From: a virus
Direction: 5' to 3' (one strand)
Length of the DNA stretch: 64,000 nucleotides
IMG/VR virus record: IMGVR_UViG_3300030098_001484
Span: 1-64,000 of that record
Positions within the stretch are counted from its first letter, which is position 1; every line of letters starts with the position of its first letter. The translations under genes were made by a program, and so were the position numbers. The notes under the pieces were generated by a model that was not told the origin of the DNA, made no database searches, and was given only the letters and a program-made list of their open reading frames with translations. Shown piece after piece: positions 576-62,223 of this stretch.

Positions 576-648
576 CACTCCGAGTAGGACTCGAACCTAC
601 GACCTACGGTTTAGAAGACCGTTGCTCTATCCACTGAGCTACCGGAGT
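576..648 (-). tRNA. tRNA-Arg (anticodon TCT)
   Basis: A full cloverleaf can be folded on the minus strand. The 7-bp acceptor stem pairs ACTCCGG with TCGGAGT (last pair G-U). There is a GCTC D-arm, a 5-bp anticodon stem ACGGT/ACCGT with loop CTTCTAA (anticodon TCT), and a T-arm GTAGG-TTCGAGT-CCTAC. The discriminator is G and CCA is not encoded. It would read AGA/AGG, common Arg codons in an AT-rich phage. It lies right after the structured non-coding region. Confidence 0.96.
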
Positions 649-684
649 ATTATACCATAAATAAATAGAAGTGTTAGTAAATAA

Positions 685-1425
685 ATAAAAAATTGTACCT
701 AAGACAAGATACCAGAGCCAAGGCCGATGGGACTACCGTTTACCCATAAGTCTTCCTCTTACGCCATCATATCTGTGGGATGGTCAGCATAAGGTAGACT
801 GCTGCTCCCCTTTGATCCATCCTAAGAAGGACTCTCACGTTTGGTTCACAACACCTTTGTCTCCAGATACCAAGACATATTCAGTCACAACTGCGTAACC
901 TGAGTTGCTATCTCAAGCTGATTCTTACGCATCTCTGATATCCTGTCTTGGATACAATAAATAGGGAGTGATAACCCAGATCCCTACTGGAAGGCTCTCC
1001 TTTAATCCGTACTGTGTCACCTAGAACAGCTACGAACCCCGCACATGGGGAATATTACACCGGCCTATTGTGCAGACCTGAACCTCTGCCGAGGCGTTGC
1101 ATATTATACCCCGCTAAGAATATAACATACTCCTTTACAGTCCTTCGGTTGTACACCCTTCACTGCTCGATTTCAAATCCTCCCTACTATGTGCAGTCCA
1201 GAGTATGTCGGACCTACATCGCTAGTAGGGAACGCTTTGGGCTTACATTCTATTTATACTCGCCCAAACGAGTGATCTTTTGACTCTCGGCGTTACAGCC
1301 TCACCTATGCCAACCAGCCCCATACCGTCCCCATCATAGGATAGGCCAAGGATTCTTCTAAGAGAGTGACACATGCAATCCTTGGTAAGTAGTCATCTCT
1401 CTGTGTTCGCAAGGGGAAACGAACA
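685..1425 (-). ncRNA. large structured non-coding RNA, GOLLD/ROOL-like in character
   Basis: About 740 nt without a credible gene on either strand, between a small CDS and tRNA-Arg. Read as minus-strand RNA it contains many strong helices: a 7-bp hairpin just after the upstream stop codon (about 1398-1425); a perfect 9-bp stem 1377-1385/1346-1354; a perfect 9-bp stem from TCCCTACTA to TAGTAGGGA (about 1225 to 1183); a 9-bp bulged helix GCCCAAA/TTTGGGC; and a 6-bp stem TAGGGA/TCCCTA near 962-986. A 23-bp helix between 933-955 and 695-717 has only one mismatch and three G-U pairs, and it closes a multibranched domain. Within that domain are TGCGTAA/TTACGCA, GGATGG/CCATCC and CAGCA/TGCTG stems. 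The end is followed by a run of six U (687-692). Giant ornate phage RNAs (GOLLD, ROOL) often lie beside tRNAs. Family membership here is inference; the structure is seen. Confidence 0.72.
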
Positions 1426-1728
1426 CTAAACTGTTTCTTTGTTCTTATGTTTAATGAACTTAAGTTGGGCGGTCGTGTCGCCCTTCCCATTCGCAGAACT
1501 GTCGCTATCACATATGTACCCACGTTCATGTAGCGCATCGAACGCCGACTCTAGTTCTTCTTCGTATGACCATTCTCCCCTACGCTTATAGCATACAAGG
1601 AAACGTCCGTGCATTGGGTGACACACAGACACTTGGTCATACCTAAACTCTACAATAAATCCAACATTTGAAAACTTATCAATAATACTAATCATCTCAG
1701 TTCTTTCTACCTGATCTACGGTTTCCAT
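1426..1728 (-). CDS. hypothetical protein, 100 aa
   Basis: A 100-residue protein that I do not recognise. It has a mixed alpha/beta composition, and its C-terminal third is charged and Lys-rich. The ATG at 1728 is chosen because AGAGAAAC lies upstream; the longer in-frame start would cover the whole preceding small basic gene. Its stop (TAG at 1426-1428) is followed at once by the first hairpin of the structured RNA region. The codons for residues about 77-82 (SSANGK) coincide with a 17-bp sequence repeated near 5380 and 5435. Confidence 0.5.
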   Translation of the reverse strand: METVDQVERTEMISIIDKFSNVGFIVEFRYDQVSVCHPMHGRFLVCYKRRGEWSYEEELESAFDALHERGYICDSDSSANGKGDTTAQLKFIKHKNKETV

Positions 1729-2296: not shown

Positions 2297-4423
2297 TCAC
2301 ATAAACATATTCTCCGATTGCAGAACCGTATCAATATCCAAGTCACCAAACTCAGGCAACTCAACACCGTACTGCTCAGCTAACGCCAACAACGGAGAGT
2401 TAAGATAAACAGCATGTGTAGCCTTGCGTATACCATCCCTAAAGATTTGCATGTGCATAGGCAACAGCCCACCACAATCATGGATGCTAATGATGTTCTT
2501 AACACCACGGGTAAGGCAGTAGATAATACACAACCGCATCACCAAAGCATCCAAGAAGTGTACAAAGTTAGGAGGTCCAGAAGTAATAGACTTCCTTACA
2601 TCAAGTACGTCTGTGTAAACGTAGAACGTAAGAGACAAGCAGTCCTCATCTCCGAAACATTTACTAGCCTTAAGTGTTCTCTCCTCAGTCTTGCTTCTGA
2701 AGTTCTCCATAACAAGACCATCAGGAGAAGTAATAGTCATTGCCTCACCATCTTCGCCCGCAACCTTGACAACCTTACCGATAAACTTCATAAAGGCTTC
2801 AATGGTCGGGCTTAACTTAAGCAACGACTTACGATAACGACTCGCCAGCTTCATGGCAATAGGAAACTGATCCTCAAACGGCACATCTAGCTTGCCGATA
2901 GGGGAGTCTGAGGCAGCAATAACTTTCCACTCTGGTTCATCTTCAGTACCAAAGTTATGCCAAGTCTTATCACCCATGAACTTCCTAGCAATAGCCAATG
3001 GCTTACCGCCGTATGGAATAATCATCACAGGATTCTTTGCAACTGTGGTAGTGTTAACCACATCCTCATTCTCAAGGAACACCTGACTAAACTCATCGTC
3101 TTCCCCTGCTTCCCAAGCACGACGGTTCTCATCACAGATATCTTTCCTGAAGTCGTGAATCTCACCGTTAGGGTTGTTGATAAGGTTTGTACGTCGGGCG
3201 TTAACCTCATCCCTAGTAGCAGCCGCAGTGTGCTGAAGGTTTGATGACACTTGGTCAAGCCTAATAGGCAAGTCCCAGTAACCGTCTTCCAAAGCATCAG
3301 CATATGCGTCACATGCACTAAAGCATTTGAAAGTACCGGCTCCCTTACCAAAGCCATCCCACCACAGATCATAATGCTTAAGCGGGTCTTCAGCAACAGC
3401 AAGGATACGGTCCTTATTGTTGTCAACCCACTCAACACGATGATCGAAGTGAAGTTTGTCCAACTTAACTCCGTCTGCTATAGGCAGTCCAGAACATGAA
3501 CTGGCGATACCAACCTTAGCCCAATACCAGTCATCGTCTGTCTTAAGAATCTGTCCGTTAGCAAAACGCAACAAACTAGAAGCCAGATCATTACCTTGCG
3601 GTGATAAGACATCGCAATAGTAATACATACGACCACGAAAGTCGATGTAAACAACCAGCCAGAAGGTCCGACCCTGCATCTCAGTAGCCACCTGTAAGGC
3701 AACACCATGAGCATACTTATGAATCTCATGTTCATAAGGCAACAGCGTATGCTTAGCCAAAGCTAAGGTACGATCTGAGATAACGTATGGCACGTCTTGT
3801 AGACCGTTCATCGCATCACAGATCCCTTGCTTTGTAACATTTTGCCACGTTCCGTGACTTATGCCGTGCCTAAGAGCATCAGTGAGATATCCACCCGGAC
3901 GCTCAATAGTATGAGGCACAGGCGGCACAACCATAGGGCGACGATTCATTCCAATCATACCCCAAAGGTCGTGTTCCTCAAGCATGTTCTTAAGTGTGCT
4001 AGTGAGCCTAACAACAGTGGTATCCCCATGCTTAGTGTGGTTAAGGTCGATAAACCCAACCGAACGACAGGCATGTATAAGATTCCAAGATATTGCTAGT
4101 CGATCCTCTCGATCCATGTTAGGTGCTAAAGTTAACAACCTGCGTGACACTTCATTCACTACAGGGTGTGCTTGAGCCGTATCACCTTCCTTGGAGACCT
4201 TATCCAGAGTGGCACATGACGCAATCATTGACACTTCTCTAAGGCCCATCTTAAGGACACGTTTAGCCCACTTAGGAGGCTGACTGAAGCCACTGATCAA
4301 ATCCTCCAGCCCTCCCTCAAGTTGGTCAACAATAGGATTAGGGTTAACACCCCTACCCATGATTTCTAACTCAAGGTTGCGCTGTTGGTCTAAAGCAGCA
4401 TCAGTAACAGTAACACATGACAT
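2297..4423 (-). CDS. divergent T7-type single-subunit RNA polymerase (RNAP 2)
   Basis: A 708-residue DNA-directed RNA polymerase of the T7/mitochondrial family. The DxRGR element is at residues 261-265 (DFRGRMYYY). The motif A aspartate is Asp390 (LDQVSSNLQH, equivalent to T7 Asp537), motif B has Lys463 and Tyr471 (T7 Lys631 and Tyr639), and motif C is IHDCGG with Asp649 (T7 Asp812). The catalytic set is therefore complete. Motif A reads DQVSSNLQH instead of the usual DGSCSGIQH, and the T7 Arg627 position is Thr, so it is clearly divergent. It is shorter than T7 RNAP (883 aa), mainly in the N-terminal domain. The start ATG at 4423 has AAGGGG upstream. A second, more canonical polymerase lies at the other end of the window, so this one probably reads a different promoter class. 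Confidence 0.93.
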   Translation of the reverse strand: MSCVTVTDAALDQQRNLELEIMGRGVNPNPIVDQLEGGLEDLISGFSQPPKWAKRVLKMGLREVSMIASCATLDKVSKEGDTAQAHPVVNEVSRRLLTLAPNMDREDRLAISWNLIHACRSVGFIDLNHTKHGDTTVVRLTSTLKNMLEEHDLWGMIGMNRRPMVVPPVPHTIERPGGYLTDALRHGISHGTWQNVTKQGICDAMNGLQDVPYVISDRTLALAKHTLLPYEHEIHKYAHGVALQVATEMQGRTFWLVVYIDFRGRMYYYCDVLSPQGNDLASSLLRFANGQILKTDDDWYWAKVGIASSCSGLPIADGVKLDKLHFDHRVEWVDNNKDRILAVAEDPLKHYDLWWDGFGKGAGTFKCFSACDAYADALEDGYWDLPIRLDQVSSNLQHTAAATRDEVNARRTNLINNPNGEIHDFRKDICDENRRAWEAGEDDEFSQVFLENEDVVNTTTVAKNPVMIIPYGGKPLAIARKFMGDKTWHNFGTEDEPEWKVIAASDSPIGKLDVPFEDQFPIAMKLASRYRKSLLKLSPTIEAFMKFIGKVVKVAGEDGEAMTITSPDGLVMENFRSKTEERTLKASKCFGDEDCLSLTFYVYTDVLDVRKSITSGPPNFVHFLDALVMRLCIIYCLTRGVKNIISIHDCGGLLPMHMQIFRDGIRKATHAVYLNSPLLALAEQYGVELPEFGDLDIDTVLQSENMFM

Positions 4424-4501: not shown

Positions 4502-5308
4502 TCAGTCCATGTTGGCTTCAAGAACCGCAGACTTATTAGCAGTCCGGCGACGATTACTCTTGTTAGACCTCAACAGGTGATCTGTATTAGTCCGCTGGTC
4601 GCCACGGTCCTCAACGTAGTTGCCTGAACGAGGGCCACTACCCATCTGAACCCCGTGAGGTTCCAATGCTTCTCTAAGGTTATTCATTGCGTCCTTAACC
4701 GTTTCCCCAACACCGTACAACCCGACATATTCATGATCGGTGTTATACTTCTTCTTCTTGAAAGTACCGTCCTTCTTACGGATACCTTCACCAATAACCT
4801 CCATCCGATATCCTTCATCGGTCAAGGTTCTGGTAAGTCTGAAACCCTTAACCCAAGGCAACTTCGAAGGCTTAACTTCAGCCTTCTCAGTCTTACTCAG
4901 GTACTCGTTGATTAGGGTCTTACTACGAGTCCGCTTGCCGGGTTCAATACCGCAAACCTTAAGTAGCTCTTGCCTTGACATGGCTTCAAGCTGCTCTTTG
5001 GTAAAGGTCTTACCCTTAGACTTCTTGCCCCCAATCTTGCGAGTCTTCTTCGCAGACTTAGGCTTGTCCTCTGCGGTAACACCACGGTCCTTGGCCTTCT
5101 TGTGCTTATCTTCAAGATCAGCCACGGTATCCTTGGTATCACCAACAATCACACCAAGCCGGGCCAATGCTCTTTGAGTGGTGGCTTTACCATTCAGTTT
5201 CCACCGGCGGTTCAACTCTTTCAGAGCCTTCTTCCGCTTCTTGTCACTCTTATTAGCATAAGCGCAAAGCTCAGCGTTGGACATATAATTCATTGGTTTC
5301 TTACTCAT
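4502..5308 (-). CDS. Lys/Arg-rich protein with SAP-like helix-extension-helix
   Basis: A 268-residue, very basic protein. Residues about 100-140 (TKEQLEAMSRQELLKVCGIE and on to a Lys-Thr-Leu-Ile helix) look like a SAP/Rho-N-type helix-extension-helix that binds DNA or RNA. The first 40 residues form a Lys-rich helix, and the middle carries Lys-rich linkers. The C-terminal part (about 150-215) seems to be a compact beta-containing domain, followed by an Arg/Asn-rich tail. It ends 78 bp before RNA polymerase 2, so it may be co-transcribed with it. A transcription or chromatin-like partner role is only inference. The ATG at 5308 has AAGGAATG upstream. Confidence 0.6.
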   Translation of the reverse strand: MSKKPMNYMSNAELCAYANKSDKKRKKALKELNRRWKLNGKATTQRALARLGVIVGDTKDTVADLEDKHKKAKDRGVTAEDKPKSAKKTRKIGGKKSKGKTFTKEQLEAMSRQELLKVCGIEPGKRTRSKTLINEYLSKTEKAEVKPSKLPWVKGFRLTRTLTDEGYRMEVIGEGIRKKDGTFKKKKYNTDHEYVGLYGVGETVKDAMNNLREALEPHGVQMGSGPRSGNYVEDRGDQRTNTDHLLRSNKSNRRRTANKSAVLEANMD

Positions 5309-5365: not shown

Positions 5366-5448
5366 GTTCCCATTGGCAGAACTCGGCCTACCACGCATGT
5401 ATACGTACATGCTTTGATGCCTTGTTCCCATTCGCAGAACTCGGCCTA
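5366..5448. repeat. two-copy direct repeat, 25 bp with 58-bp period
   Basis: The 25-bp units at 5366-5390 and 5424-5448 differ at one base (core TTCCCATTSGCAGAACTC). The sequence after each unit is also similar and rich in GTAC/CATG, including a perfect 7-bp hairpin at 5395-5412 (GCATGTA, tetraloop TACG, TACATGC). A third copy of a 17-bp core occurs at about 1484-1500, inside a gene. The pair lies in the 171-bp gene-free gap between two minus-strand genes. It could be a protein- or polymerase-binding region; its function is unknown. Confidence 0.7.
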
Positions 5449-9020: not shown

Positions 9021-9050
9021 CTCTCCCCCATGTACTCTTCATAGGTTTAT

Positions 9051-9070
9051 ATACTATTATACCCGGTTAT
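9051..9070 (-). promoter_or_regulatory. candidate phage RNAP promoter, copy 3
   Basis: The 20 bases here are identical to 32091-32110 and 52293-52312. On the minus strand the core reads ACCGGGTATAATAGTAT. It lies 15 bp after the stop of the giant virion gene, and its orientation leads to the holin-like gene. Flanks differ completely between the copies, as expected for a single-subunit RNAP promoter of about 20 bp. The part TATAAT also equals a bacterial -10 box, but no matching -35 is conserved. Confidence 0.75.
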
Positions 9071-9085
9071 CCGTCCATCGGCCTT

Positions 9086-12000
9086 CTAGGGGTTCTGAGG
9101 GCCGATTTTAAAGAAACTGTCCGGTAATCGAAGATACGTAGGCATCTCATAGATTGACTCGAATACATCAGTTTCCTTCTGCATTTCAAAGAACGGATTG
9201 AAGATAGGCTTCTCGGGTTTCTTGGCAGGGTTCTTATGCAGCGACTGTTGCATATACCGCTGTTTTTCCAAGGGGGTAGTGTTTGGGGTGTTCGATGGAA
9301 TTTTCGGCTGAAGACGCGGTGTAACGTGATCCTCGAAGTTCTGAAGGATAGTTTCTCTCCATACTCTCATAGCTTCGTCTGGCCTATTATTATCAATATC
9401 TTCTTTCATCATACTTGATAAAGCTAAGGCCAAGATTCTAGCTTGGTCCCGGTCATCAGGATTTACGTGATTAAAGAAGGCATCATTAATGGGAACCCAC
9501 CAGAATGCCTTGGTTGGGAACATGGCTTGATACAACAGATTGAAAGCATCACTAGCCTGAGCATCTCGCTCTCCAGACTTTAGGTCTCCCATTGTAGCAA
9601 TCCAGTCTTCCATGCCTACAGCTTTTGTAGCTTTGGTTCTGCCTTTTGTTAAGAAGTTGCCCTTACCCATACCTACCATTGCATTTGAGATCATCTTAAA
9701 TACGCCGGATGCTGGCATTTCTAGCGGATTGCTTCCATACGCAGGTTCACCTAACATTGGATTTACAACAGGTAAGACCGCCAGTTCTCTTACTATCTTA
9801 CTCCCCCATCCTAATACCGGAGCATGAGAACCCTTCTGGAATAGTTTAGCCCACCCATTTTCTTTCCATTCGGTTGCAATTTCTTCTGCTGATTTCTTAC
9901 CGGACTGAAGCTCCCTAACTTGCATATGTAACATCTCTAATGAAACAATACCTGCAATTAGAGCTAAGGCTTTTATGGCTCCTACTTCAGATGGATTCTT
10001 TTTCATATAAACATTAAAGAACGCTAAAGGATAAGTAGCATAGAAAGAGAATAATCTACCAAACCAATTCTTATTAAAGTGAGAATAAGAGGCTAATCCT
10101 CTCGGTTCTGGGGAAGCATCGTGAGCGTGCATTTCAATAAAGTTAATAAAACGATCAAACACATCCGTATACAGGTCTCTTTCTAACTTCCCAAACTGAT
10201 AATCAACGGAGTTCATTCGTTCAAACATAAGCGATTGATCCCAATTTGATTGGGTTGCTTCGCCCCATGTAAGAAGCTTTCTAACCATTGGCATCACATC
10301 TAGTCCACTGTCATCAACAACAAGCCCAGCCCTAAACCATCTCATCGCCATTTCATAGCTTAGTCCTTCTTTTCTAGCTAAGCCTTTAATGTATCGTCGT
10401 TTTGCTTTAGCGTCCGTTAGCGATTTAAATTTAATAGGATCAAATGCTAGATTAAACGCTTCAAGTTTATCTAAATTCTTAAGAGTATTATACTTAGCAT
10501 TACCAACCGCAATATTCTTAGTTAGGTTTATGACTTGGCGTAAGAACGTAAACTCTGATTGCATTTTAGCCGTGGCCTCTAAGAAATTATTAAGTTTTTC
10601 CATAGCTCCGTCTGTAGCGGTATACTTTCTATCTTTACTCCACATTAATTTCCAAAGGGATCTAATTCGATTACTCCATTTAATATCGTACTCTACTCGA
10701 TCATCATTCATAAACTTAGCTAAGCCAGATCTTTCAATGTTATCGAACATAAAGGCAGTACCCTCAAGATTGGTATTTAAGTTAGATGAAGATCTTGGGA
10801 TTCCCTTAAAGGCTGTACCTAAAGCATTCATTAACGCTCCAGCACTTCCTGATCTAGCAATAATAGCAAACGGTAATTCAACTAAAGCAACTGCTTGTGA
10901 AATACCGCTTCCAAAAATAGCCTGAGCAAGATTGTTCATTGCTTTTACTGCTGTATCAAATTTGATGTTTGCATCATATACAGGCGTTCCAATCATTTCC
11001 TTATAAAGCATTTCCATAAAATCGACAGTTTCTTCGAGTGCTTTTTTAGTGGCGTGATCAGCAATTTTCTTACCCTTTGGTCCGGCTATCTCGGTTAAGC
11101 TTGCAACCCTATCTCGCATTAAAGAAAAGACATCTTCAAACCGTAGGTTCTTAAGTTGTTCTCCGGTAAATGGAGAAGCAATTGCCATTGTTTGAAGCCA
11201 ATGATTTAATACATCTTGTGCATTAATTCTAGTTGCAGTAGTATTAGCGTAGTCCATAATAATCCGGTCCCACGACCAATCAAATTCTTTTAAGAATTCA
11301 GGATTATTTGCTAATTCTTCAGCAGAGAACACCCTTTCTTTTGATCCCATATTCGGTTGACCTATTTCATTTATGTACCTACGTTCTGCTCCAGCAACGT
11401 CTTGTCCAGCCTTAGAACCAGCAGCTTCGTGGTTTCTTCGCCTAGCCCAATTAATCATAGCTTCGTGTAATGCGGTTCGTTCTGGATTAATTCTTGCCCC
11501 CTTGGTATTTACATAATAACTAGTATCACCACCATAAGAAGCTTCTATTTTATCTCCAATAGAAATTGAATCCTCTGCTCCGCTATATTCAGCATTTAAG
11601 TTTTCTTCGCTAAATGTTTTAAATATTTCTGGCTTAGCCATAATAGGTTTAGTAGTATCAGGAGCTATAGCCTTAGCAGAAGTTTTTAACTCTTCAGGAG
11701 AGAACACTTGAATTTTACGACTCTTAGGTTTAAATACATTTGGTTCTCTTATTACAGAGATATCCAGAGCAGTCTTTGTCATAAATGGAGAACCTTCTTC
11801 AGTACCTACTCTAAATTGATTAGGTCCAAGCTTTTCTTGTAATTCATTAATAACCGCTGCTTCTCTTTGTTTAAGTTCTTTATATCGTTCAATGGATTCT
11901 TTATATAGCTGCCTCATTTTAAGAGTACGGGCTTGCATAGCCGAGTCTTGTTTAATAGGATTTCTTTCAACTGTAATTTGAGGATCCATCCACTGATCTT

Positions 12001-15000
12001 CAGCAGGCAATGTTTTATGAAGGTTTTCAATATCCCAAACTTCTTGCTTAATTGCTTGTAGCTCTTTAGCTAATGTTATGCTCTCAATAACAATTGGAGA
12101 ATCCTTTTGAGATCTTAGTTCTGCTATACGTGCATTGTAATCAGCTAACAGATAACCGGGAGACTTTAAACTCCACTCTCCCTTGGTATGATCCCACTGC
12201 TCTCTACCTTTCTTTTTACCCGCTTGTTTGACAACCTCTTGCTTTTTAGCTTCTAAGTAAGCAATCTTTTCATCAATTGTTTTATTCTTAACTTCAGGTG
12301 TTGGCTCAACTTTAGTAATTGTAATACCATGTAGTTCTTCTGCTCGTTCCCGACCTCTAGTTGTTAATCTCCAACCTCGTGCTGAACGATCATATTCAAT
12401 GAAGCCGGTCTTTTTTAAGTGCTGGAATAAATTGTTTTGATAAGAAGCTACATTTTTTCCAATATCATCGCTGTAAGTCTTTGGAGCAAAACGACTTATA
12501 GCTGGAATATCTTGTTTGGTAACGGGCTGAAAACTAGGATCAGCACTAACTAACGGCCTAATTTCCCCGAAGAATTGTTTAATAAAGTCAGCTTTAGTAA
12601 AGGTTGCATTTGTAGGATGGATTCTAAACCACTCAATAATATTTTTTTCTAGTGCCGTTTGAGGCTGGAATAATAAAGGCTTAGCAGGAACAAATACTTT
12701 TTTATCTTGATACTGTGTTAAGTTATCTAAAGCTTTCTTTAAGATACGTCTCTTATACATTAGAAGATTTCGAGTATAGTAATTACCTGTAGTAAATTCT
12801 TTTTTAAACGCCGGAACTCTATTATCGTTTGCGTAATTTTTAGAGAACCAATTAATTTTATTTACCATAGATGCAGAATCTCCAATATATCTCATTTGAG
12901 GTTCCATGAGTTGTTTATCTACAGTATTAAGTTCCTTAAGTAAAGAATCAAAAGGATTATCTACAAATCGGACAACTCCCTCAACAAACGTAGAATAAGC
13001 CTCCGCATAATTCTTGTAATGTCCTTGTAATAAAGATTCGGTTTCTTTCATGGTTTCGAACATAACTAAAGCTCTAAAGTTACCGATCATTGTGTCTTCT
13101 ACAATATCATTAACTTGCTGCTCAGTTAGTTCTTTATATTTTGGATTCTTCTTTTTCTTTTCAGCTTCTTCTTTTAAAAGTCTCTTTCTAATTTGTTCAG
13201 CAGATTCGCTTACAGAATCAATCATTCTTGTTAAAGTAGAGTAAGTTCCTTTAATATTTTTAATTACGTCTCTTTCGATTGCCCCTATTGTTAGGTGCGT
13301 AGCAAAGGTTACATATTCTACCTCTTTACCGTAATGACCGCCCTTACTGGTTGGCATATCATATGGTAACAATAGTTGCTTTTCAAGCTCTGCTAAACTT
13401 GAAATTGGCTTAACAAAAGTATAACCATCGTTTTCGTTTAAAGCTCTGTTTACCGATATCTTAGTAAACTTAGTTGGTCCTCCATCGGCTGCTCTTGGTT
13501 TCCACTCAGGATATAAAGGAATAATATCCTGAATGGGCTTAATAATTTTTACTCCCTCCCATTTAATGCTCTTTCCAAAAATACTATTTAAAGAAATTGC
13601 TCGTCTTCTAGACGGGAGGTTTAATTTAGATTCTCGTAATTCACTTTCATATATCGCTTCTCGTAATCGCTGAATCCAACGATTAATGTTTTCCCTTAGA
13701 ACCCGTACCTCTTGATCTCTATGCACAGGGCGGGAAATTCCAGTACGTCCGTCAGTTTTCATAGTTGTAGTATATAAATATTGCTTATTAATGGGTCTAT
13801 TAATAGAATCAAAATAACCAATTGCAGATGTATCTCCAGACTTAGCAATCTGTTCTTGAACATAGTTTGCATGCCAGTTCACAAGTTTTCTAACATCAAT
13901 TTCCTGTTCTTGTTTTAACTCTGCTCTACGTTGCTGTATGTCTTCGGCCCTAAACTTAAAGAAACTGTTAGGATTATCTTTCCATTTATTAGCACTTTCG
14001 TCCCACATGGCAGCGTCGGCATCGCCTTCAACAAGTAACTTAACCAAAAGATTAATTGAACGTCTTTCGTTTCGTTCTGCTGCACTTATACCTTTTTCAG
14101 TGGGATCAAAGAAATCTACTAACATTTTATTTAGACTTTGCCGTAACTCGTCATTTATCATCCTGTCTTCAGGACGCTCAGTTCGACTAGTCATTCGTGG
14201 CCTATCGGACACAGACATTCCTAATCTTTCGGCTTCTTCTGGGCTGATGCTAGATATTTTGCCCCTACCTATTTCAGAAGATCGTTTTCTTTTTCGGAAG
14301 GTTTCTTTGTATCCTGCCGCAACAGCGTACATAAAGCGACCTAATGGTACTTCTGAGTTGGCTCCAACACCGCCAAAGGTTTTGTCTTCTGACTTAAGCC
14401 TTCGAATTTTTCTCCACTTACCGTCCTCTCCCTTTTGTAATTTATGTGTAAACATTTCTCTACTAGCTCGGTGTAAAGCCATAGAGTCTTTAAATCCTAT
14501 AGAACTTGATAGTGGAAACTCTTTTATTAACTCTTCGGTTGTTAAGTCAATAAGCTTCTTAGGCTTACCTTTTTCATTCTTAACAATTTCTGATGTAGCC
14601 TTTTCAAACTGATCTTCAGTTAAATACCATAAACGCTTTAAGGCTGTAGGTTTACTGGTTGCTAACCAGAACAACTCTTCGAATACATCATCAAGTAAAT
14701 CTGCATCTACATCATGTCCTGCGGCTAACTCAGCACGGATAATAGAACTAATGCGTTGTTTAATGGCATATTCAATTCCCGGTTCGGTTTCCCATTCTTG
14801 TAAACCATACTTATCAGTTCTGCCCTTTTTACCCACAGCTTTTACTTTAGTTGCGTTTCTATTATATAAGAAGAATAAATCGCCAACAGTCATTGTTTCT
14901 TTGTTCTCAGCACCCGGAACAAAGTTGTAAAACTTATCATAAATATCGGCTTCATGCTTTGCTTCTTTAGCTTCTTTAGCTGCTATTTCTTTTTCAAGTG

Positions 15001-18000
15001 CTTTCTTTCGTAGTATTCGTTTTCTCTTACCGCCAAGATTAGCTGCCATTGCGGCTTGGTGCATGGTTAATTCAGCCGCTTCAGCTAGATGGAACTTTCC
15101 TGTTGTATCAAAACCAAATACGGAACCTTCGCCATCCAAGAGGTTTCTAAGCATTTCCAATCTTTTAATTTCCCAACGAAGCATTTCAATTTTTGGATGA
15201 TTAGGATCATTGATTCCAAGCTTTGTTCGTTTTTCATGTAAGGAATTTAATAGTTTTTGAAGTTCTTGTTGATACGCTCGACGGTTAGGATCTACAAACT
15301 TTTCTATTTCAATTAAAGTAACAATTTTATTCCACTGTCTTTCAATAGCTTTGGCCTTACCTTCAATAGGTTTGGCCCAATCCTTTTGAGCTATTTTACC
15401 GGGCTTTAATTGTTCCTTTCGTGTAATAGGAGAAATCCATCCTAAGTAAGATTCCATAACTTTAATCATTTTCTTAGCATTTTTTTGGATAGCAGGATGA
15501 GGAAGCTCAGCTTGTTTTTTATAAAACTCTAAAGTATTGCGTAATCTGGTTTCATTAATTAAAGTTGAATCGCCCTTTAATTTTAAAAGGTGTGGAGGAC
15601 CGTCTGTTAATTGAAGGATGCTAGGTAACATCTCTGCTTTCTTTTGTCTAACTTCCTTCCACAGTTTAACTCGTTGATCAACCACTGCTTTAAAGTCTCC
15701 GTCTCCGGTTAATAAAGCATACTCTTGCATCATAGTAAAGTATTCGTCTATATATGTTTTAACTTCTACTTCAACATCTTTAGATATAGTAAAGCGTCCT
15801 CGGCTTACATCACTTATTTCTTCTAAGATTCTCATTTCTTGATAGTTAAGGGCTGTTAGTTCTGCTTGGGTAGCTGTAGCATCTACGGCACTAGGCTGTT
15901 CAGTCCTAATAGCAGAATCTTCTAAGCTTTCTAGCTCTCTCTTGTGTTGTATAATTCTTTCGTCTAAATTAGCAACTGTTTTTGTAGCTAATGCTTGTGC
16001 TTCTTTAGCCTTTAATTGAGCTTGCTTTTTACCCATTGCTTTGTATTCTTTCTTAGAAATACCAAGAATTTTTCGAACTTGTTTCTTCGTAAGATCTGCT
16101 TCTTGTTTTTCGTGGGGTAACTCTGCAAGTACAGCATCAATGGTTTCATCTGTCTGTACAATTTCTATAGACGAATCATTGGGCTGATCTATTTCAGCTA
16201 CATCTTCAGGCTTGTCTACTTTCTGTTTCTTATATCCAATTGTAGGACCACGACGATAGACTTCATTTAAGTCTACATCAGTATCCCTTTCGTTTCTTAG
16301 CATAATATCATCAAGATTATCCCAAACCATGTCTGTTTCTAAGTCTGCTTTATATCCATCAATTTCGCCTTGAATATTGTCAGACCAAGCTGAAAACGGT
16401 TTATTATCTTTAGATGAATAATTACCATGCCAGATATCAATAAATGGATATCTTTCTTTAATTGCTCGTTCAATTGCAAGTCTAGTTATTCTTTGCTCTG
16501 GTTTGTTTTCCATAGCTGCATTTAAACTTGCATCAACCATAGCTTTTTTAATGGAGCCTATATCCGTTAGGATTTGCTGAGTAATGGTTTCTCCTCCTAC
16601 GGATACCCATCCCTCCGACAACCACGTTTGCATCTTTAGATTCCACTCTTCTGCATCATTAGCTTTCATCTCATTCCATTTTTTATTAACTTCTACTTCC
16701 TTACGATATTCTAAGAACAGTTCATTTCTTTCATCAAGGTCGAAGTAATTATGGTCTGGATAATATTTTTCAAGCCAGCTTTTGAAATGAGGAGAATCTG
16801 CGCCAGCTTCTGCTATAGCTTGTGTTAAGGCTTCATAATCTTCTGCTGAAGGATCGCCTGTTTTGTTTACTACATTTCTCCAACTTCTAAAATCTATATT
16901 TGCTTCTAACTCAGAGTTGGCTGCAACCGCCTTTAAAACATTTCGTCGATTGTAATCAGCCGCTTCTTTAATGGCTTCTCGAATTAAATGCACAACAATT
17001 TTAGAAACATCAAAATTATTAGCAGCACCTTCCGACACAATCTGTTTAAGCATGGCGTTGTTGTTAACAAAATTGATAATATCTAGAATAGATAAGCCAT
17101 TGTTTATAAACTCTTGTTCATTAATTCCCAACTCTCTTCGACCAACTTTTCTGCCAGTAAGAGCTTCTACTGTATCAAAGAGATGCTGCTCACCTACAGC
17201 ATAAAAGTCTTGTTCGGGGAACAGAGGATCTGGTTTATCTAGGTTTTTAGTAAACATTTCACCAATGTTTTCACCTTGTTCTCGACCAGTAAATGGTGTA
17301 ACTGTGGTTATTTCGTCTATTGGAATAGGTTTTTCTAATCCCTCAACCTTAATACTAATGATTGTTGGCTCAGGAATTAATCCTTGTTCTACGTCGTTTG
17401 CGGCTTCTCTCAGAGTAGTAGCTAATTCTAAGTTTCCTTCAGCTTCGTATCTATCCGCTGATGTGCGCATGTCATCAATGTTTCTAGTGGTAGCATAATC
17501 AGCGTTTTCGACAATACGTGCGTTTTCAAACAAAGGATTGTCTACATTGTGGATTACAACAGAACCAACATCAATAGGTTTATCAGGAGTTTCAACAAAA
17601 CCGGGAAACTCTAACCTATCGTGTGATACCTTTACGTTGGCTTTTACTGGGTTTCCATTAATTTCTAGTACATTGCCCTTGTGTTTAATTCCCGGCTCAA
17701 TAATATACGTAACTCTTGGTTCTCCTGAATCAGATAAATTCTTTGGAAATACTCTATTTCTTTCTGAAACAGACATTAACTCAGGATCAAACCTATCACC
17801 AACATTATCTATGAGTTCCATTTCATTCTTTGCTAAAAACTCATCTAATCTTTTTTGAATTTTTTCTTGTAGCTCTAACTCTAATGCTGCAAGAGTTTCG
17901 GTTTTTACCTTATTTTCAGGGGTTTTTGACTTAATTTTTTCTATGGCTTCAAGTTGGTTTCTTCTAATATTCCATAGAATCATAGCCGCAGTTCGCGTAT

Positions 18001-21000
18001 CTTCTAAACTAAATCGTCCTTCTCCATCAATAGGTTCTAGCCTATCAAAGTATTCATTAGCTGTCTTTTTTCTTCTTTCTAAGGTTTCAACAATAGGCGT
18101 AATAGGATCTACTTTTTGTTCTTTGATTAACGATAGTGGAGCGTCTTCTTTAGCAACAACAGGTAAACCTTTATTTTGTCGTTTATTATCTGCTGCTGCT
18201 TGAAGGGTACGTAAATCATCAGTTGTAAATCCGGTTTGATTATGATAATCCCACACCTGCTTTGACAGAGTAGCTTGGTTTATATCAGGACTATAGAAAA
18301 TAGATCCTTCAGGAATACCGCTAATACCTACTACAGAACCTTTCTCAGTTAATAAAGAAACATGACCGATTGCTTCAAGCTCAACAATAGAAACAAATCC
18401 TGATTCTAAATAACTGTTTGCTTTAATGTGGTTGCCTGCTGTTCCTAAGCTAATTACAGATTCAGGGTTATCGTTGATCATACTCTGAGATAATGGCACA
18501 TATCCTTCAGGATTACTGCTTTTAGTAAGCTGATTAGTGTCTACACCTCTTTGATAGTTTCTCATTAAGTAATCATCAATTTGAATAAAGACATCAGTAA
18601 AGTGTTGAGCAATAAGCTCCACATCTAAATGATCTATATTTCCCATTTCATTACCTAAAGCTTCTCTAACCCATTCTTTTATATTAGCTCTCTTAATTTT
18701 GTTTACTCTAGCTAATGCTATTAATTCTTCAAAGACCGGGAAAACTTCTTCCGGTAAGGCTTCTTTAGCTCTGTGTAAACGGGCCACAACAATCGAAGCT
18801 TCTCGTTTAGCTTTTTGTTTTGCGTGCCAAACACTTTGGTTTCGCCCTGTTGCGTTTAGATCATCAACTAAAAATTCGTGGGTATTATCTAAAATTCTAC
18901 CTAATGTTCTTAGTTCATATAAGGTAGAATAATAGACATCTGATTTACTAGAGCCTAGCTCAGCAACGGCAGAAACCATTCTGGTCAACTTAGAGCGTCG
19001 TAAAGCCTCGTCTAATACTTCAGCATTTTTAGCGTGGTTTCCTGTAGGATCTTGCATTCGCTTAAGGAGAGCAGAAAGAACTTCTTTACGTAGTTCTTGG
19101 CCTTCCATTGTTTCGTCTTGTATTCTCTTAACAAGCTTAGCGTCTGCTTCGTCTTGTAAAGCTTTCCTGCTTTTTGTGCTTTTTCTAGGATATGCTTTAT
19201 CCATTTCTTGTATCGCACTATCAACTAGTTTGTTTTGAGCGACAATCTCACTCATAGGAGTATCTCTAGTTTCTAAAAGCTTTAAGTTTTCAACTGCATC
19301 AAACAACTTAACTAACTCAGGTGTTGTGTAAGTATAGTCTCTAAATCTTAAACTAGGTGCTAAGTCTTCAGGGAACTTAGGAAAAGCTTCTCCACCATTT
19401 CCTTTTTCTAAAAAGTTAACTAAATCAGCTTCAGTTCGTTTGAATTTACGATAAGCCTCTCGAAACTTTTTACTGTCTACGCCATGCTTTTCTTTCATCT
19501 TTTCCGCTGTAGCTCTACGATTGTTTAATTTAGTTGTTAAGTTATTGTATCTTGTCCACGATTCTCTAGCTGCCACATCTGTAGGAGCAGCAGTATTAAA
19601 ATCTCTTGGCTTTGGAGTCGGAGATCGCAAGGAATCAACTTCGCTTACGGGTTTTAATAACCCTCTTTCTTCCATTGCGTGTTTTCCATCGGCGGTATTT
19701 CTAGCCTTTCTTTCAGCAGAAGACGCAATCTTATTACCGTTTTGCTTTTTCTTTAATTTAATAAAGGCCATAACTTCTTTTTCGATAACTTCACGATTTA
19801 CTTTATGACCACCAGAACGATAGTGTATATCTTTTAACAAGTTTGCAATTTCGTTTAAGGTAGAATGATGGCCTTCAATTAAGTTTCTATCTAAGAATCT
19901 AGCAAAAGCTTCTCCTTCTCCTCCAGTCATATGATCTACAAAAGAAGATACCGTAATCATACCATCTTCCCAACCCATATGAGAAACCAATCCTTCAAAG
20001 GTTCCGTCCATTGGAGAATCTGTAGATATTCCCGCCATATGTTTTAACTGATTTTGAACCCAATGAGGATGGTTAAAGCCTATTTTCTTAGCGTCTTTTA
20101 TTCCCTTAAAGATTTGACCTCCGAGAAACCCATCCATAAAACCAGTCATAGCAAAACCAAATCCACCCATTGTTCCCATTGTAAAAGCTAATTCGCCCAA
20201 ACTAAAACTATAATCGTGATTTCCTAGGCCATTTATAAAGTCTAATCTTTGTCTAGCATCTTCTTGTTGACGTAAGTTCATTCCTAAACCATACGCTGCA
20301 CCCCAACCAGCACCAACAGCGGAGCGTCCAGCTAATCCACCTAAAGTTTTAGCACCCTTCATAAAGGCTAAAACTTCTAAAGTTTCTCCGACTGCGACCA
20401 TTGGATAACCCAGCATTTTATTTATAAATGCTTGTGATTTAATTTGTGTATTAGTTAAAGTTGCTAATCGAGAATCCTTAACAAACCTAGCTCCCCAGAC
20501 TCCTTGTTTAGTATTAAACAAAGTGGGTATTAATGAACCGTCTGCCATTAAAGCTTTAGTATCTTTTAAACTTAAAGCAACATCGTCTCCTGTTTTAGAA
20601 ATACCAGAAGCCGGTCCCTTCCAACCCTTAGTTCTTGTAGCCCGAGTTGCAACTAATTGCCACTGATTTTTAGGATTACCAAATCCACCCCACAAACGAG
20701 GATTTAATTTTCTTCTTAAGGGTACGCCCATATGGCGACGAACTCCTTGGGTAACAAACTTTCCAGATGTTTGGGCTAAATCTATTACTTCTCCGGTGGT
20801 TCTATGAATTAATCTTGGATTAACGTACTGACCTTTTTGAGCGGCTTGAAGAAATTTACTTAGTCTAGCGGTTTGTTCTGTGCTTTTTAATAAAGCTTGT
20901 CCACCCGTTTTGGTTACTGCACCTACTCCCGCTAATCCGAAAGTTAAGGGAATAGTAGCATAAAGCTCCCAATCCATTCCCATATCAAATATCATATCTC

Positions 21001-21745
21001 CCCACCAATCAGCGGTTTCAGATGTTTTACCGGCTTCTCTCATTTGCATATCATATCGAGTTTTACGCATCATTTCTAAAGACGTATCTAATACATGACG
21101 ATTAACCCAATATAAATAATCGTTTTTATTGGCTGCTCCTTTGCCCCACTCTTGAGGATTAATTCCCTGCTGTTCTAAGTATTCCCTTATAAGGTCTGCT
21201 TCAATCTTGTTTCCTCGTCTTTTAGGAAAAGCTTCATCTAACGCAGTAATCCATCCATCAGTCTTATAGTCAAATGTAGGGTCTAAACCATCATGCATGG
21301 CATCAATACGGCTCCAATCTGTATTTAAAAACCATTCTAGATCGTCGCCCAATCCCTCAAACTTCATTGTACCCGAGTATCCTCCAGCCGTAGCAGGAGT
21401 TAAACCGGCCAAAGATTCATGGAACTCAACGGAATATGGGTTAGCTCCGAGCATTCCTGACATATATTGAGGCTGTGATCTTAGGTTTAACCATCGCCAA
21501 TAATCATTCATATCTTCAGTACTAAAAATTTCTGGAGGAAGGATGCCTCTATGAAAGTCCCAGTCAAGTCCAGAACGAACAGAGAAATCTCCTTCTTTGT
21601 TTATATTCATTACAGGAATAGGCCAAAGAGTTTTTTCTGCTTCTTCTTTTGTCGCTTGTATATAATCAACGCGATTAACTACTGGAATAGGCTTCCGCGT
21701 TAAGGTTCTTTCATAATCTCTAAAGCTTCCTAATGGATATTCCAT
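9086..21745 (-). CDS. giant internal virion (DNA ejection) protein, 4219 aa
   Basis: One uninterrupted reading frame of 4219 codons, about 470 kDa. From position and character it corresponds to the largest ejection protein of T7-type podoviruses (T7 gp16, 1318 aa), but it is over three times longer. Visible features are a hydrophobic segment at about 259-280, a Gly/Ala-rich hydrophobic zone at about 500-590, very long charged helical regions through the middle, a winged-helix-like patch around residue 3020-3110, and hydrophobic helices in the last quarter (about 3530-3570 and 3860-3890). I found no lytic transglycosylase motif and no RNA polymerase motif. Its ATG overlaps the upstream stop (TAATG) with AGGAG ahead. 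It is AT-rich compared with the capsid gene. Its likely role is forming the channel across the cell envelope during genome ejection. Confidence 0.8.
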   Translation of the reverse strand: MEYPLGSFRDYERTLTRKPIPVVNRVDYIQATKEEAEKTLWPIPVMNINKEGDFSVRSGLDWDFHRGILPPEIFSTEDMNDYWRWLNLRSQPQYMSGMLGANPYSVEFHESLAGLTPATAGGYSGTMKFEGLGDDLEWFLNTDWSRIDAMHDGLDPTFDYKTDGWITALDEAFPKRRGNKIEADLIREYLEQQGINPQEWGKGAANKNDYLYWVNRHVLDTSLEMMRKTRYDMQMREAGKTSETADWWGDMIFDMGMDWELYATIPLTFGLAGVGAVTKTGGQALLKSTEQTARLSKFLQAAQKGQYVNPRLIHRTTGEVIDLAQTSGKFVTQGVRRHMGVPLRRKLNPRLWGGFGNPKNQWQLVATRATRTKGWKGPASGISKTGDDVALSLKDTKALMADGSLIPTLFNTKQGVWGARFVKDSRLATLTNTQIKSQAFINKMLGYPMVAVGETLEVLAFMKGAKTLGGLAGRSAVGAGWGAAYGLGMNLRQQEDARQRLDFINGLGNHDYSFSLGELAFTMGTMGGFGFAMTGFMDGFLGGQIFKGIKDAKKIGFNHPHWVQNQLKHMAGISTDSPMDGTFEGLVSHMGWEDGMITVSSFVDHMTGGEGEAFARFLDRNLIEGHHSTLNEIANLLKDIHYRSGGHKVNREVIEKEVMAFIKLKKKQNGNKIASSAERKARNTADGKHAMEERGLLKPVSEVDSLRSPTPKPRDFNTAAPTDVAARESWTRYNNLTTKLNNRRATAEKMKEKHGVDSKKFREAYRKFKRTEADLVNFLEKGNGGEAFPKFPEDLAPSLRFRDYTYTTPELVKLFDAVENLKLLETRDTPMSEIVAQNKLVDSAIQEMDKAYPRKSTKSRKALQDEADAKLVKRIQDETMEGQELRKEVLSALLKRMQDPTGNHAKNAEVLDEALRRSKLTRMVSAVAELGSSKSDVYYSTLYELRTLGRILDNTHEFLVDDLNATGRNQSVWHAKQKAKREASIVVARLHRAKEALPEEVFPVFEELIALARVNKIKRANIKEWVREALGNEMGNIDHLDVELIAQHFTDVFIQIDDYLMRNYQRGVDTNQLTKSSNPEGYVPLSQSMINDNPESVISLGTAGNHIKANSYLESGFVSIVELEAIGHVSLLTEKGSVVGISGIPEGSIFYSPDINQATLSKQVWDYHNQTGFTTDDLRTLQAAADNKRQNKGLPVVAKEDAPLSLIKEQKVDPITPIVETLERRKKTANEYFDRLEPIDGEGRFSLEDTRTAAMILWNIRRNQLEAIEKIKSKTPENKVKTETLAALELELQEKIQKRLDEFLAKNEMELIDNVGDRFDPELMSVSERNRVFPKNLSDSGEPRVTYIIEPGIKHKGNVLEINGNPVKANVKVSHDRLEFPGFVETPDKPIDVGSVVIHNVDNPLFENARIVENADYATTRNIDDMRTSADRYEAEGNLELATTLREAANDVEQGLIPEPTIISIKVEGLEKPIPIDEITTVTPFTGREQGENIGEMFTKNLDKPDPLFPEQDFYAVGEQHLFDTVEALTGRKVGRRELGINEQEFINNGLSILDIINFVNNNAMLKQIVSEGAANNFDVSKIVVHLIREAIKEAADYNRRNVLKAVAANSELEANIDFRSWRNVVNKTGDPSAEDYEALTQAIAEAGADSPHFKSWLEKYYPDHNYFDLDERNELFLEYRKEVEVNKKWNEMKANDAEEWNLKMQTWLSEGWVSVGGETITQQILTDIGSIKKAMVDASLNAAMENKPEQRITRLAIERAIKERYPFIDIWHGNYSSKDNKPFSAWSDNIQGEIDGYKADLETDMVWDNLDDIMLRNERDTDVDLNEVYRRGPTIGYKKQKVDKPEDVAEIDQPNDSSIEIVQTDETIDAVLAELPHEKQEADLTKKQVRKILGISKKEYKAMGKKQAQLKAKEAQALATKTVANLDERIIQHKRELESLEDSAIRTEQPSAVDATATQAELTALNYQEMRILEEISDVSRGRFTISKDVEVEVKTYIDEYFTMMQEYALLTGDGDFKAVVDQRVKLWKEVRQKKAEMLPSILQLTDGPPHLLKLKGDSTLINETRLRNTLEFYKKQAELPHPAIQKNAKKMIKVMESYLGWISPITRKEQLKPGKIAQKDWAKPIEGKAKAIERQWNKIVTLIEIEKFVDPNRRAYQQELQKLLNSLHEKRTKLGINDPNHPKIEMLRWEIKRLEMLRNLLDGEGSVFGFDTTGKFHLAEAAELTMHQAAMAANLGGKRKRILRKKALEKEIAAKEAKEAKHEADIYDKFYNFVPGAENKETMTVGDLFFLYNRNATKVKAVGKKGRTDKYGLQEWETEPGIEYAIKQRISSIIRAELAAGHDVDADLLDDVFEELFWLATSKPTALKRLWYLTEDQFEKATSEIVKNEKGKPKKLIDLTTEELIKEFPLSSSIGFKDSMALHRASREMFTHKLQKGEDGKWRKIRRLKSEDKTFGGVGANSEVPLGRFMYAVAAGYKETFRKRKRSSEIGRGKISSISPEEAERLGMSVSDRPRMTSRTERPEDRMINDELRQSLNKMLVDFFDPTEKGISAAERNERRSINLLVKLLVEGDADAAMWDESANKWKDNPNSFFKFRAEDIQQRRAELKQEQEIDVRKLVNWHANYVQEQIAKSGDTSAIGYFDSINRPINKQYLYTTTMKTDGRTGISRPVHRDQEVRVLRENINRWIQRLREAIYESELRESKLNLPSRRRAISLNSIFGKSIKWEGVKIIKPIQDIIPLYPEWKPRAADGGPTKFTKISVNRALNENDGYTFVKPISSLAELEKQLLLPYDMPTSKGGHYGKEVEYVTFATHLTIGAIERDVIKNIKGTYSTLTRMIDSVSESAEQIRKRLLKEEAEKKKKNPKYKELTEQQVNDIVEDTMIGNFRALVMFETMKETESLLQGHYKNYAEAYSTFVEGVVRFVDNPFDSLLKELNTVDKQLMEPQMRYIGDSASMVNKINWFSKNYANDNRVPAFKKEFTTGNYYTRNLLMYKRRILKKALDNLTQYQDKKVFVPAKPLLFQPQTALEKNIIEWFRIHPTNATFTKADFIKQFFGEIRPLVSADPSFQPVTKQDIPAISRFAPKTYSDDIGKNVASYQNNLFQHLKKTGFIEYDRSARGWRLTTRGRERAEELHGITITKVEPTPEVKNKTIDEKIAYLEAKKQEVVKQAGKKKGREQWDHTKGEWSLKSPGYLLADYNARIAELRSQKDSPIVIESITLAKELQAIKQEVWDIENLHKTLPAEDQWMDPQITVERNPIKQDSAMQARTLKMRQLYKESIERYKELKQREAAVINELQEKLGPNQFRVGTEEGSPFMTKTALDISVIREPNVFKPKSRKIQVFSPEELKTSAKAIAPDTTKPIMAKPEIFKTFSEENLNAEYSGAEDSISIGDKIEASYGGDTSYYVNTKGARINPERTALHEAMINWARRRNHEAAGSKAGQDVAGAERRYINEIGQPNMGSKERVFSAEELANNPEFLKEFDWSWDRIIMDYANTTATRINAQDVLNHWLQTMAIASPFTGEQLKNLRFEDVFSLMRDRVASLTEIAGPKGKKIADHATKKALEETVDFMEMLYKEMIGTPVYDANIKFDTAVKAMNNLAQAIFGSGISQAVALVELPFAIIARSGSAGALMNALGTAFKGIPRSSSNLNTNLEGTAFMFDNIERSGLAKFMNDDRVEYDIKWSNRIRSLWKLMWSKDRKYTATDGAMEKLNNFLEATAKMQSEFTFLRQVINLTKNIAVGNAKYNTLKNLDKLEAFNLAFDPIKFKSLTDAKAKRRYIKGLARKEGLSYEMAMRWFRAGLVVDDSGLDVMPMVRKLLTWGEATQSNWDQSLMFERMNSVDYQFGKLERDLYTDVFDRFINFIEMHAHDASPEPRGLASYSHFNKNWFGRLFSFYATYPLAFFNVYMKKNPSEVGAIKALALIAGIVSLEMLHMQVRELQSGKKSAEEIATEWKENGWAKLFQKGSHAPVLGWGSKIVRELAVLPVVNPMLGEPAYGSNPLEMPASGVFKMISNAMVGMGKGNFLTKGRTKATKAVGMEDWIATMGDLKSGERDAQASDAFNLLYQAMFPTKAFWWVPINDAFFNHVNPDDRDQARILALALSSMMKEDIDNNRPDEAMRVWRETILQNFEDHVTPRLQPKIPSNTPNTTPLEKQRYMQQSLHKNPAKKPEKPIFNPFFEMQKETDVFESIYEMPTYLRLPDSFFKIGPQNP

Positions 21746-32077: not shown

Positions 32078-32090
32078 ATATCTACTCCTT

Positions 32091-32110
32091 ATACTATTAT
32101 ACCCGGTTAT
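32091..32110 (-). promoter_or_regulatory. candidate phage RNAP promoter, copy 2
   Basis: An identical 20-bp copy of the motif (minus-strand core ACCGGGTATAATAGTAT). It sits in the 36-bp gap between the tail-spike stop and the small-terminase start. The Shine-Dalgarno AAGGAG begins immediately after the motif, so a transcript starting near its 3' end would have a very short leader. It would drive terminase and internal virion genes. Confidence 0.78.
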
Positions 32111-52275: not shown

Positions 52276-52292
52276 ACTTGCTCCTTTTTGAT

Positions 52293-52312
52293 ATACTATT
52301 ATACCCGGTTAT
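52293..52312 (-). promoter_or_regulatory. candidate phage RNAP promoter, copy 1
   Basis: An identical 20-bp copy of the motif (minus-strand core ACCGGGTATAATAGTAT). It overlaps the last bases of the exonuclease gene and lies 17 bp before the dUTPase start. It would open the dut-nrdJ-virion unit. Two bases after the core are also shared with the copy at 9051-9070. Confidence 0.78.
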
Positions 52313-61958: not shown

Positions 61959-62223
61959 GTTCTTGTCCCCTTCTAAGAGTTGACATTTCAATTATAATGT
62001 TACGAGGAATACTATGGACGGTTCCAGTATTATCCTCCCCTACAGTATCTGTTATAGCTACATACTCATCTGTCTCATGTAACACATAACCTATATTTTT
62101 AATTTTAGGTAACGGTTCATGAGCATATTCGTATGCGTCTTCTAATGATACCCACTCAGGACCACCCTGAGAATGAGCATCTACCCAAACGATTTCTCTT
62201 ACTTCAAGCGAAGAGATAATCAG
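61936..62223 (-). CDS. hypothetical protein after RNAP 1, start uncertain
   Basis: About 95 residues. The core VREIVWVDAHSQGGPEWVSL (then EDAYEYAHEPLPKIKNIGYV) resembles a small conserved phage domain, beta-rich, with an IPRNIIIEM end and a charged tail. The frame stays open far into the polymerase gene, where it is only a shadow. There is no ATG after that, so the true start is unclear: a CTG near 62223 or an ATT near 62220 would fit. It ends 23 bp inside the next gene. Gene likely real, start weak. Confidence 0.5.
   Translation of the reverse strand: MIISSLEVREIVWVDAHSQGGPEWVSLEDAYEYAHEPLPKIKNIGYVLHETDEYVAITDTVGEDNTGTVHSIPRNIIIEMSTLRRGQEHDNEGNR

Follow-up and report, generated by a model that had tools for sequence, protein, structure and literature searches.

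Two T7-type RNA polymerase genes in a family of uncultured phages, with candidate promoters of two classes

Known systems with more than one polymerase

To our knowledge, known Autographiviridae carry one T7-type RNA polymerase gene, and the textbook T7-type phages run on a single polymerase. Phages with several RNA polymerases have already been described, among them N4, the jumbo phages and P23-45, and in plants the paralogous T7-type enzymes RpoTm, RpoTp and RpoTmp divide the labour within one genetic system, although these are nuclear genes serving organelles and not phage genes. Here we analyse a second T7-type polymerase gene, RNAP2, in a 64,000-nucleotide stretch of viral DNA (the window; positions 1 to 64,000 of IMG/VR record IMGVR_UViG_3300030098_001484) that also carries the main T7-type polymerase, RNAP1. 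In a literature search that took in few subscription papers and no bioRxiv preprints, we found no description of two complete T7-type polymerases kept in one phage across a whole family.

RNAP2 shares with the T7/SP6-type polymerases of the Autographiviridae (PF00940) its family, the catalytic motifs, the predicted fold and short putative promoters ending in a purine start, but those phages have one such gene each, and RNAP2 is a protein of 708 aa with Asn542, Arg571 and Thr627 (T7 numbering). The likeness to N4 (Schitoviridae) consists in the presence of more than one polymerase of the single-subunit family, in the small number of candidate early promoters and, in one relative (G031), in hairpins of N4 geometry. 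The N4 virion polymerase (vRNAP) is, however, part of a virion protein of ~3,500 aa, whereas RNAP2 is a separate ORF, and N4 RNAPII is split into two chains, gp15 and gp16, whereas RNAP2 is one chain. The promoters of N4 vRNAP are hairpins with a 7-bp stem and a 3-nt loop (PMC4496689). Thermus phage P23-45 has a virion and a non-virion polymerase, both relatives of cellular RNAPs (PMC10770324); it resembles our phage in having two phage polymerases per genome and a relay logic, but its enzymes are not T7-type.

The two polymerase genes and their evolution

An earlier note, made from the sequence alone, had placed a second, highly divergent single-subunit polymerase at positions 2,297 to 4,423 of the window. 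These positions correspond exactly to one ORF, on the minus strand, which starts with an ATG at 4423 preceded by the ribosome-binding site aagggg and stops at 2297. RNAP1 (819 aa, minus strand, 62204..64000) is cut by the window edge, and its complete sequence was seen in the 66,999-bp contig (64663-62204, ATG at contig 64663). A 99-bp direct repeat is present at both ends of the contig, and the genome is a 66.9-kb circle or terminally redundant; with the ends joined by the repeat, RNAP2 thus lies ~4.5 kb upstream of RNAP1 rather than at the opposite end of the genome. All large genes are on the minus strand. The presence of a T7-type terminase, a portal, a family-A DNA polymerase and a primase-helicase indicates an Autographiviridae-like phage of bacteria, with distant nearest cultured phages (terminase ~41%, capsid ~28%) and no close relative found among GTDB genome contigs.

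RNAP2 matches Pfam RNA_pol (PF00940; E 1.9e-28, 100 bits, cut-off 22) and the PHROG RNA polymerase (1.2e-95), and its identity with RNAP1 is 24-25%. Comparison with solved structures gave 8e-22 for T7, 2e-16 for the human mitochondrial enzyme and only 0.44 for N4 RNAPII. The AlphaFold model (pLDDT 79.7) predicts the T7 RNAP fold across residues 5-708, with a region ~50 residues shorter than in T7 between residues 184 and 255, the thumb by position. The model aligns with T7 RNAP elongation complexes (1s76) at Z 32.2 (502 residues at 2.9 A), with yeast mitochondrial RNAP at Z 31, with N4 RNAPII at Z 19 and with N4 mini-vRNAP at Z 16. RNAP2 is therefore structurally closer to the T7 and mitochondrial enzymes than to N4 RNAPII or vRNAP, and the earlier note's remark that N4-like phages use several polymerases of another type was a fair one.

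The details given in that note for the active site also held. The catalytic residues D537, K631, Y639, H811 and D812 of T7 are all present, motif A reads DQVSSNLQH, a Thr occupies the T7 R627 position in the residue table, and pairwise alignments of the specificity-loop regions of RNAP1 and RNAP2 reveal no evident similarity. Further substitutions are C540S, G542N, Y571R and R632N, and the RNAP2 of a close relative, L004, has Ala at R627 and Asn at G542; both enzymes thus lack G542, Y571, R627 and R632, which nearly all single-subunit polymerases keep. Apart from the RNAP2 group, every polymerase in the table retains R627 and G542; such conservation is common in T7-type polymerases and was not counted as a defining trait. 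In the RNAP2 of G014 and G016, H784 is missing. In T7, R627 and K631 hold the triphosphate (PMC9836923), and the mutants R627S and G542V retain only 10-30% activity in one coupled assay (PMC8155940). Taken together with the RNAP2 substitutions at these two positions, the mutant data make catalytic activity of RNAP2 plausible, not assured.

The proposal of two T7-type polymerases in one phage was borne out well beyond the window, since the pair is kept across a whole uncultured virus family. Relatives were gathered from RNAP1 (17 loci, then a partly overlapping set of 80), and those at >=45% RNAP1 identity form a distinct group, the next relatives being at 26-33%. An RNAP2-type ORF of 572-713 aa is found at the same spot in all 13 lineages of the RNAP1 family for which enough upstream DNA was examined (our own; L004/L005/L006/L013; G008, alias L055; G011; G014, alias L058; G016, alias L061; G024; G026; G031, alias L159; G032; G033; G035; and G036). 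Three IMG/VR contigs carry an RNAP2 that is 60% identical to ours and, downstream of it, an RNAP1 with 78% identity, and a fourth has a partial RNAP2. With Pfam, the second RNA_pol ahead of RNAP1 is detected in G008, G011, G024, G031, G032, G035 and G036; in G014, G016, G026 and G033, reading of the upstream DNA revealed at this place an ORF of 590-710 aa missed by Pfam, and for the one of G026 an AlphaFold model aligns with T7 RNAP at Z 30.6. G033 is the weakest case. All 13 lineages keep in RNAP2 the T/DxxGR Arg, the motif-A Asp, the motif-B Lys and Tyr (8 apart) and the motif-C His-Asp. The two polymerase genes are intact, and their order and strand do not vary among the 13 lineages. Where the stretch was read, a giant virion-type gene is followed by RNAP2, then by small genes and a conserved ORF of ~330 aa, and finally by RNAP1. 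In G030, RNAP2 was not found within 6.2 kb upstream, and a Pfam search, which hyperdivergent copies would escape, found a second T7-type polymerase in none of 19 control contigs that carry an ordinary T7-type RNAP.

Two side observations concern the RNAP1 locus itself. In G038 (L100, an 82-kb contig), RNAP1 (40737-39651) is split over two frames by a frameshift, an intron or an assembly error. The contigs L024, L027, L029, L030, L031, L081 and L083 start 0.4-1 kb upstream of RNAP1, perhaps at a physical genome end or at a spot that is hard to assemble.

RNAP2 has evolved far faster than RNAP1, with identities to relatives of 60, 39 and about 20% versus 78, 67 and about 55%, and by tree branch lengths the rate is ~3 times higher. 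Between our phage and L004, dN/dS is ~0.19 for RNAP2, with dS near saturation, and 0.08 for RNAP1, and pN is 0.27 versus a pS of 0.68 for RNAP2, values that indicate purifying selection on RNAP2. The earlier note had suggested a phylogeny of both enzymes; in our tree, with T7, SP6, phiKMV, marine, rhizobial and yeast mitochondrial polymerases included as references and N4 compared by structure instead, RNAP1 and RNAP2, including the G031 RNAP2, lie together on one side of a branch with 99/99 support, obtained without the longest branches. The long branches of the RNAP2 of G011, G014 and G016 make their placement unreliable. Because the 99/99 branch joins the two enzymes, the simplest reading of the tree is an old duplication in the phage lineage. 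An origin of RNAP2 in the T7, SP6 or mitochondrial lineages receives no support from it.

Two promoter-like motifs

Two promoter classes had been considered plausible, and at the sequence level this idea gains support from two unrelated promoter-like motifs upstream of the two polymerase genes. Class 1 occurs four times and class 2 three times, while 20 shuffles gave zero for each. Class 1, ATAACCGGGTATARTAGTATA, is distributed genome-wide, with one site ahead of RNAP1 (contig 64709), one between the giant virion-type gene and the RNAP2 region (ATAACCGGGTATAATAGTATA, 9050..9070), one upstream of the terminase region (32090..32110) and one upstream of the dUTPase/RNR region (52292..52312), the last three on the minus strand. 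The positions are the same in L004, where the sequence is covered, and, slightly altered, in G008, and G024 and G031 have a class-1-type pair of different sequence, one member following the giant gene and the other preceding RNAP1. The giant gene (9086..21745, minus strand), of virion type by position, codes for 4219 aa and is followed by RNAP2-type ORFs in the relatives where the stretch was read. No confident family matches were found for this protein or its 2023-aa neighbour, and an RNAP inside the 4219-aa protein was discarded on finding no RNAP match in Pfam or PHROGs.

Class 2, AGTTCTGCGAATGGGAA, is confined to the early region, with all three sites on the minus strand. Two tandem copies, AGTTCTGCGAATGGGAA (5425..5441) and AGTTCTGCCAATGGGAA (5367..5383), lie upstream of RNAP2 and of a gene for a 268-aa basic protein (4502..5308, minus strand) that stands between them and RNAP2 and is matched in size and place by ORFs of L004 (272 aa) and G008 (270 aa). 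The third, an exact copy of the 17-mer (1484..1500), precedes the non-coding RNA region that lies between the two polymerase genes. In L004 the corresponding three positions carry TAGTTCTACCAAAGGG; G008 has five coding-strand copies of AGAATCCTACCAAAAGA, which all fall in the early region (16.6 to 29.2 kb out of 68 kb) and one of which is within the RNAP1 coding sequence. The 51 kb of G031 contain three class-2-like sites, which end in CCAATAGAAGA and are preceded by perfect hairpins with a 7-bp stem and a 3-nt loop, with a compensatory stem change; a class-2-like site there directly precedes an RBS and ATG. No such N4-type geometry was found at the class-2 sites of the window, and the repeat was not recognised in lineages beyond our own, L004, G008 and the looser case of G031. 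The 3΄ ends of class 2, GGGAAC, GGGAGG and GAAGAA, resemble the initial transcribed sequences of T7 and SP6. As sigma-70 promoters the class-2 repeats were rejected for want of any resemblance, and sigma-70-like sites in the 1-10 kb region are at chance level (17 vs 19.1). Near-perfect sigma-70 promoters (TTGACA, 17, TATAAT) were seen on either side of RNAP1 in G014, at ~1.97 and ~5.98 kb, which suggests that the host RNAP may make RNAP1 early in that relative. In G008, a class-2-like site with 1 mismatch in 17 falls within the specificity-loop codons of RNAP1 (2562 region).

The stretch after the third class-2 site, a non-coding region and then a tRNA-Arg (579..1425, minus strand), contains a Pistol ribozyme (1273-1212, minus strand, 42.4 bits) with counterparts at L004:12960-13021 and L159:12752-12684. 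The core bearing it shares 92-98% identity with L004 and exceeds the surrounding coding DNA in conservation, and there is a weak manA-like RNA match at 909-717 (26.8 bits, below threshold). In G016, a manA RNA (3701-3897, 77.9 bits) lies between RNAP2 and RNAP1, and G031 has three tandem type-II hammerhead ribozymes (14504-14571, 14192-14259 and 14828-14893) after the giant gene and upstream of RNAP2.

Which polymerase may read which motif? For the pairs own-L004, L004-G008 and own-G008, specificity-loop identity is 0.98, 0.80 and 0.78 for RNAP1 and 0.53, 0.47 and 0.31 for RNAP2; hand-counted matches are 20-21/21, 19/21 and 18/21 for class 1 and 13/17, 11/16 and 9/16 for the class-2 core. The RNAP1 loop and class 1 are thus nearly static, while the RNAP2 loop and class 2 diverge in the same rank order. 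Since specificity region and motif diverge together in these three lineages, with G031 as a looser case, we tentatively infer that RNAP2 pairs with class 2. Free divergence of one pair with the other fixed is what would be expected from two uncoupled circuits.

Possible roles of RNAP2

We propose, with a probability of about 0.6, that RNAP2 is an active T7-type polymerase, an old paralogue of RNAP1, that works beside it with promoters of its own. RNAP1 would be the main middle and late enzyme, positively regulating itself, and would read class 1 at its own gene, at the replication/metabolism and packaging/late genes and at the region upstream of RNAP2; given the class-1 site between the giant gene and RNAP2, it would be expected to switch RNAP2 on. 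RNAP2 would read class 2 ahead of two targets, its own operon and the non-coding RNA/tRNA stretch that leads on to RNAP1, amplifying its own and early-region transcripts without the host polymerase and possibly feeding RNAP1 by read-through. The timed relay suggested in the earlier note is possible.

A rather different and distinctly less probable scheme is that RNAP2 is made late, packaged and injected, reading class 2 at the start of infection before RNAP1 takes over, in a relay like that of N4 or P23-45. Its place after the giant virion-type gene, with a late-capable class-1 site between or near, would suit this, as would the three G031 hairpins of vRNAP-promoter geometry and the small number of class-2 sites and their restriction to the early region, which recalls N4, where three vRNAP promoters occupy the leftmost 10% of the genome (PMC4496689). 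Against it, RNAP2 is a separate 708-aa gene and not fused to a virion protein, the class-2 sites of the window have no such hairpin, and the class-2 pair upstream would also produce RNAP2 inside the cell. Somewhat more doubtful still is a slow or repurposed paralogue, serving in primer synthesis or as a regulator of RNAP1, with the class-2 repeats serving another protein: the loss of G542, Y571, R627 and R632 in our RNAP2 and that of L004, the loss of H784 in G014 and G016 and the very fast evolution fit such a role, but the catalytic D, K, Y and H-D and the T/DxxGR Arg persist in 13/13 lineages even at ~20% identity, dN/dS is well below 1, and the class-2 ends resemble single-subunit polymerase starts, all on the coding strand.

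That both polymerases use class 1, RNAP2 being a redundant copy, appears improbable: in its favour, class 1 alone is seen genome-wide, but the specificity regions of the two enzymes have no evident similarity and class 1 hardly changes while the RNAP2 loop drops to 31-53% identity. Least probable by far is an artefact, in favour of which nothing was found, either a chimeric contig, which the shared arrangement in 13 lineages and the circular end repeats rule out, or a recently acquired stray polymerase gene; the same arrangement in independent contigs from many metagenomes refutes an artefact, and the tree joins both enzymes.

Tentatively, and with a likelihood similar to that of virion delivery, we also envisage an N4-style dual-polymerase programme arisen by internal duplication, in which a small virion-delivered or early RNAP2 with few, fast-changing promoters, extruded hairpins in some phages of the family, would hand over to RNAP1. 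Returning to RNAP2 as an active enzyme beside RNAP1, the family would hold a slowly evolving and a fast-evolving polymerase, apparently each with its own promoter, a natural test of how polymerase and promoter specificity co-evolve, and may be a source of naturally orthogonal polymerase/promoter pairs.
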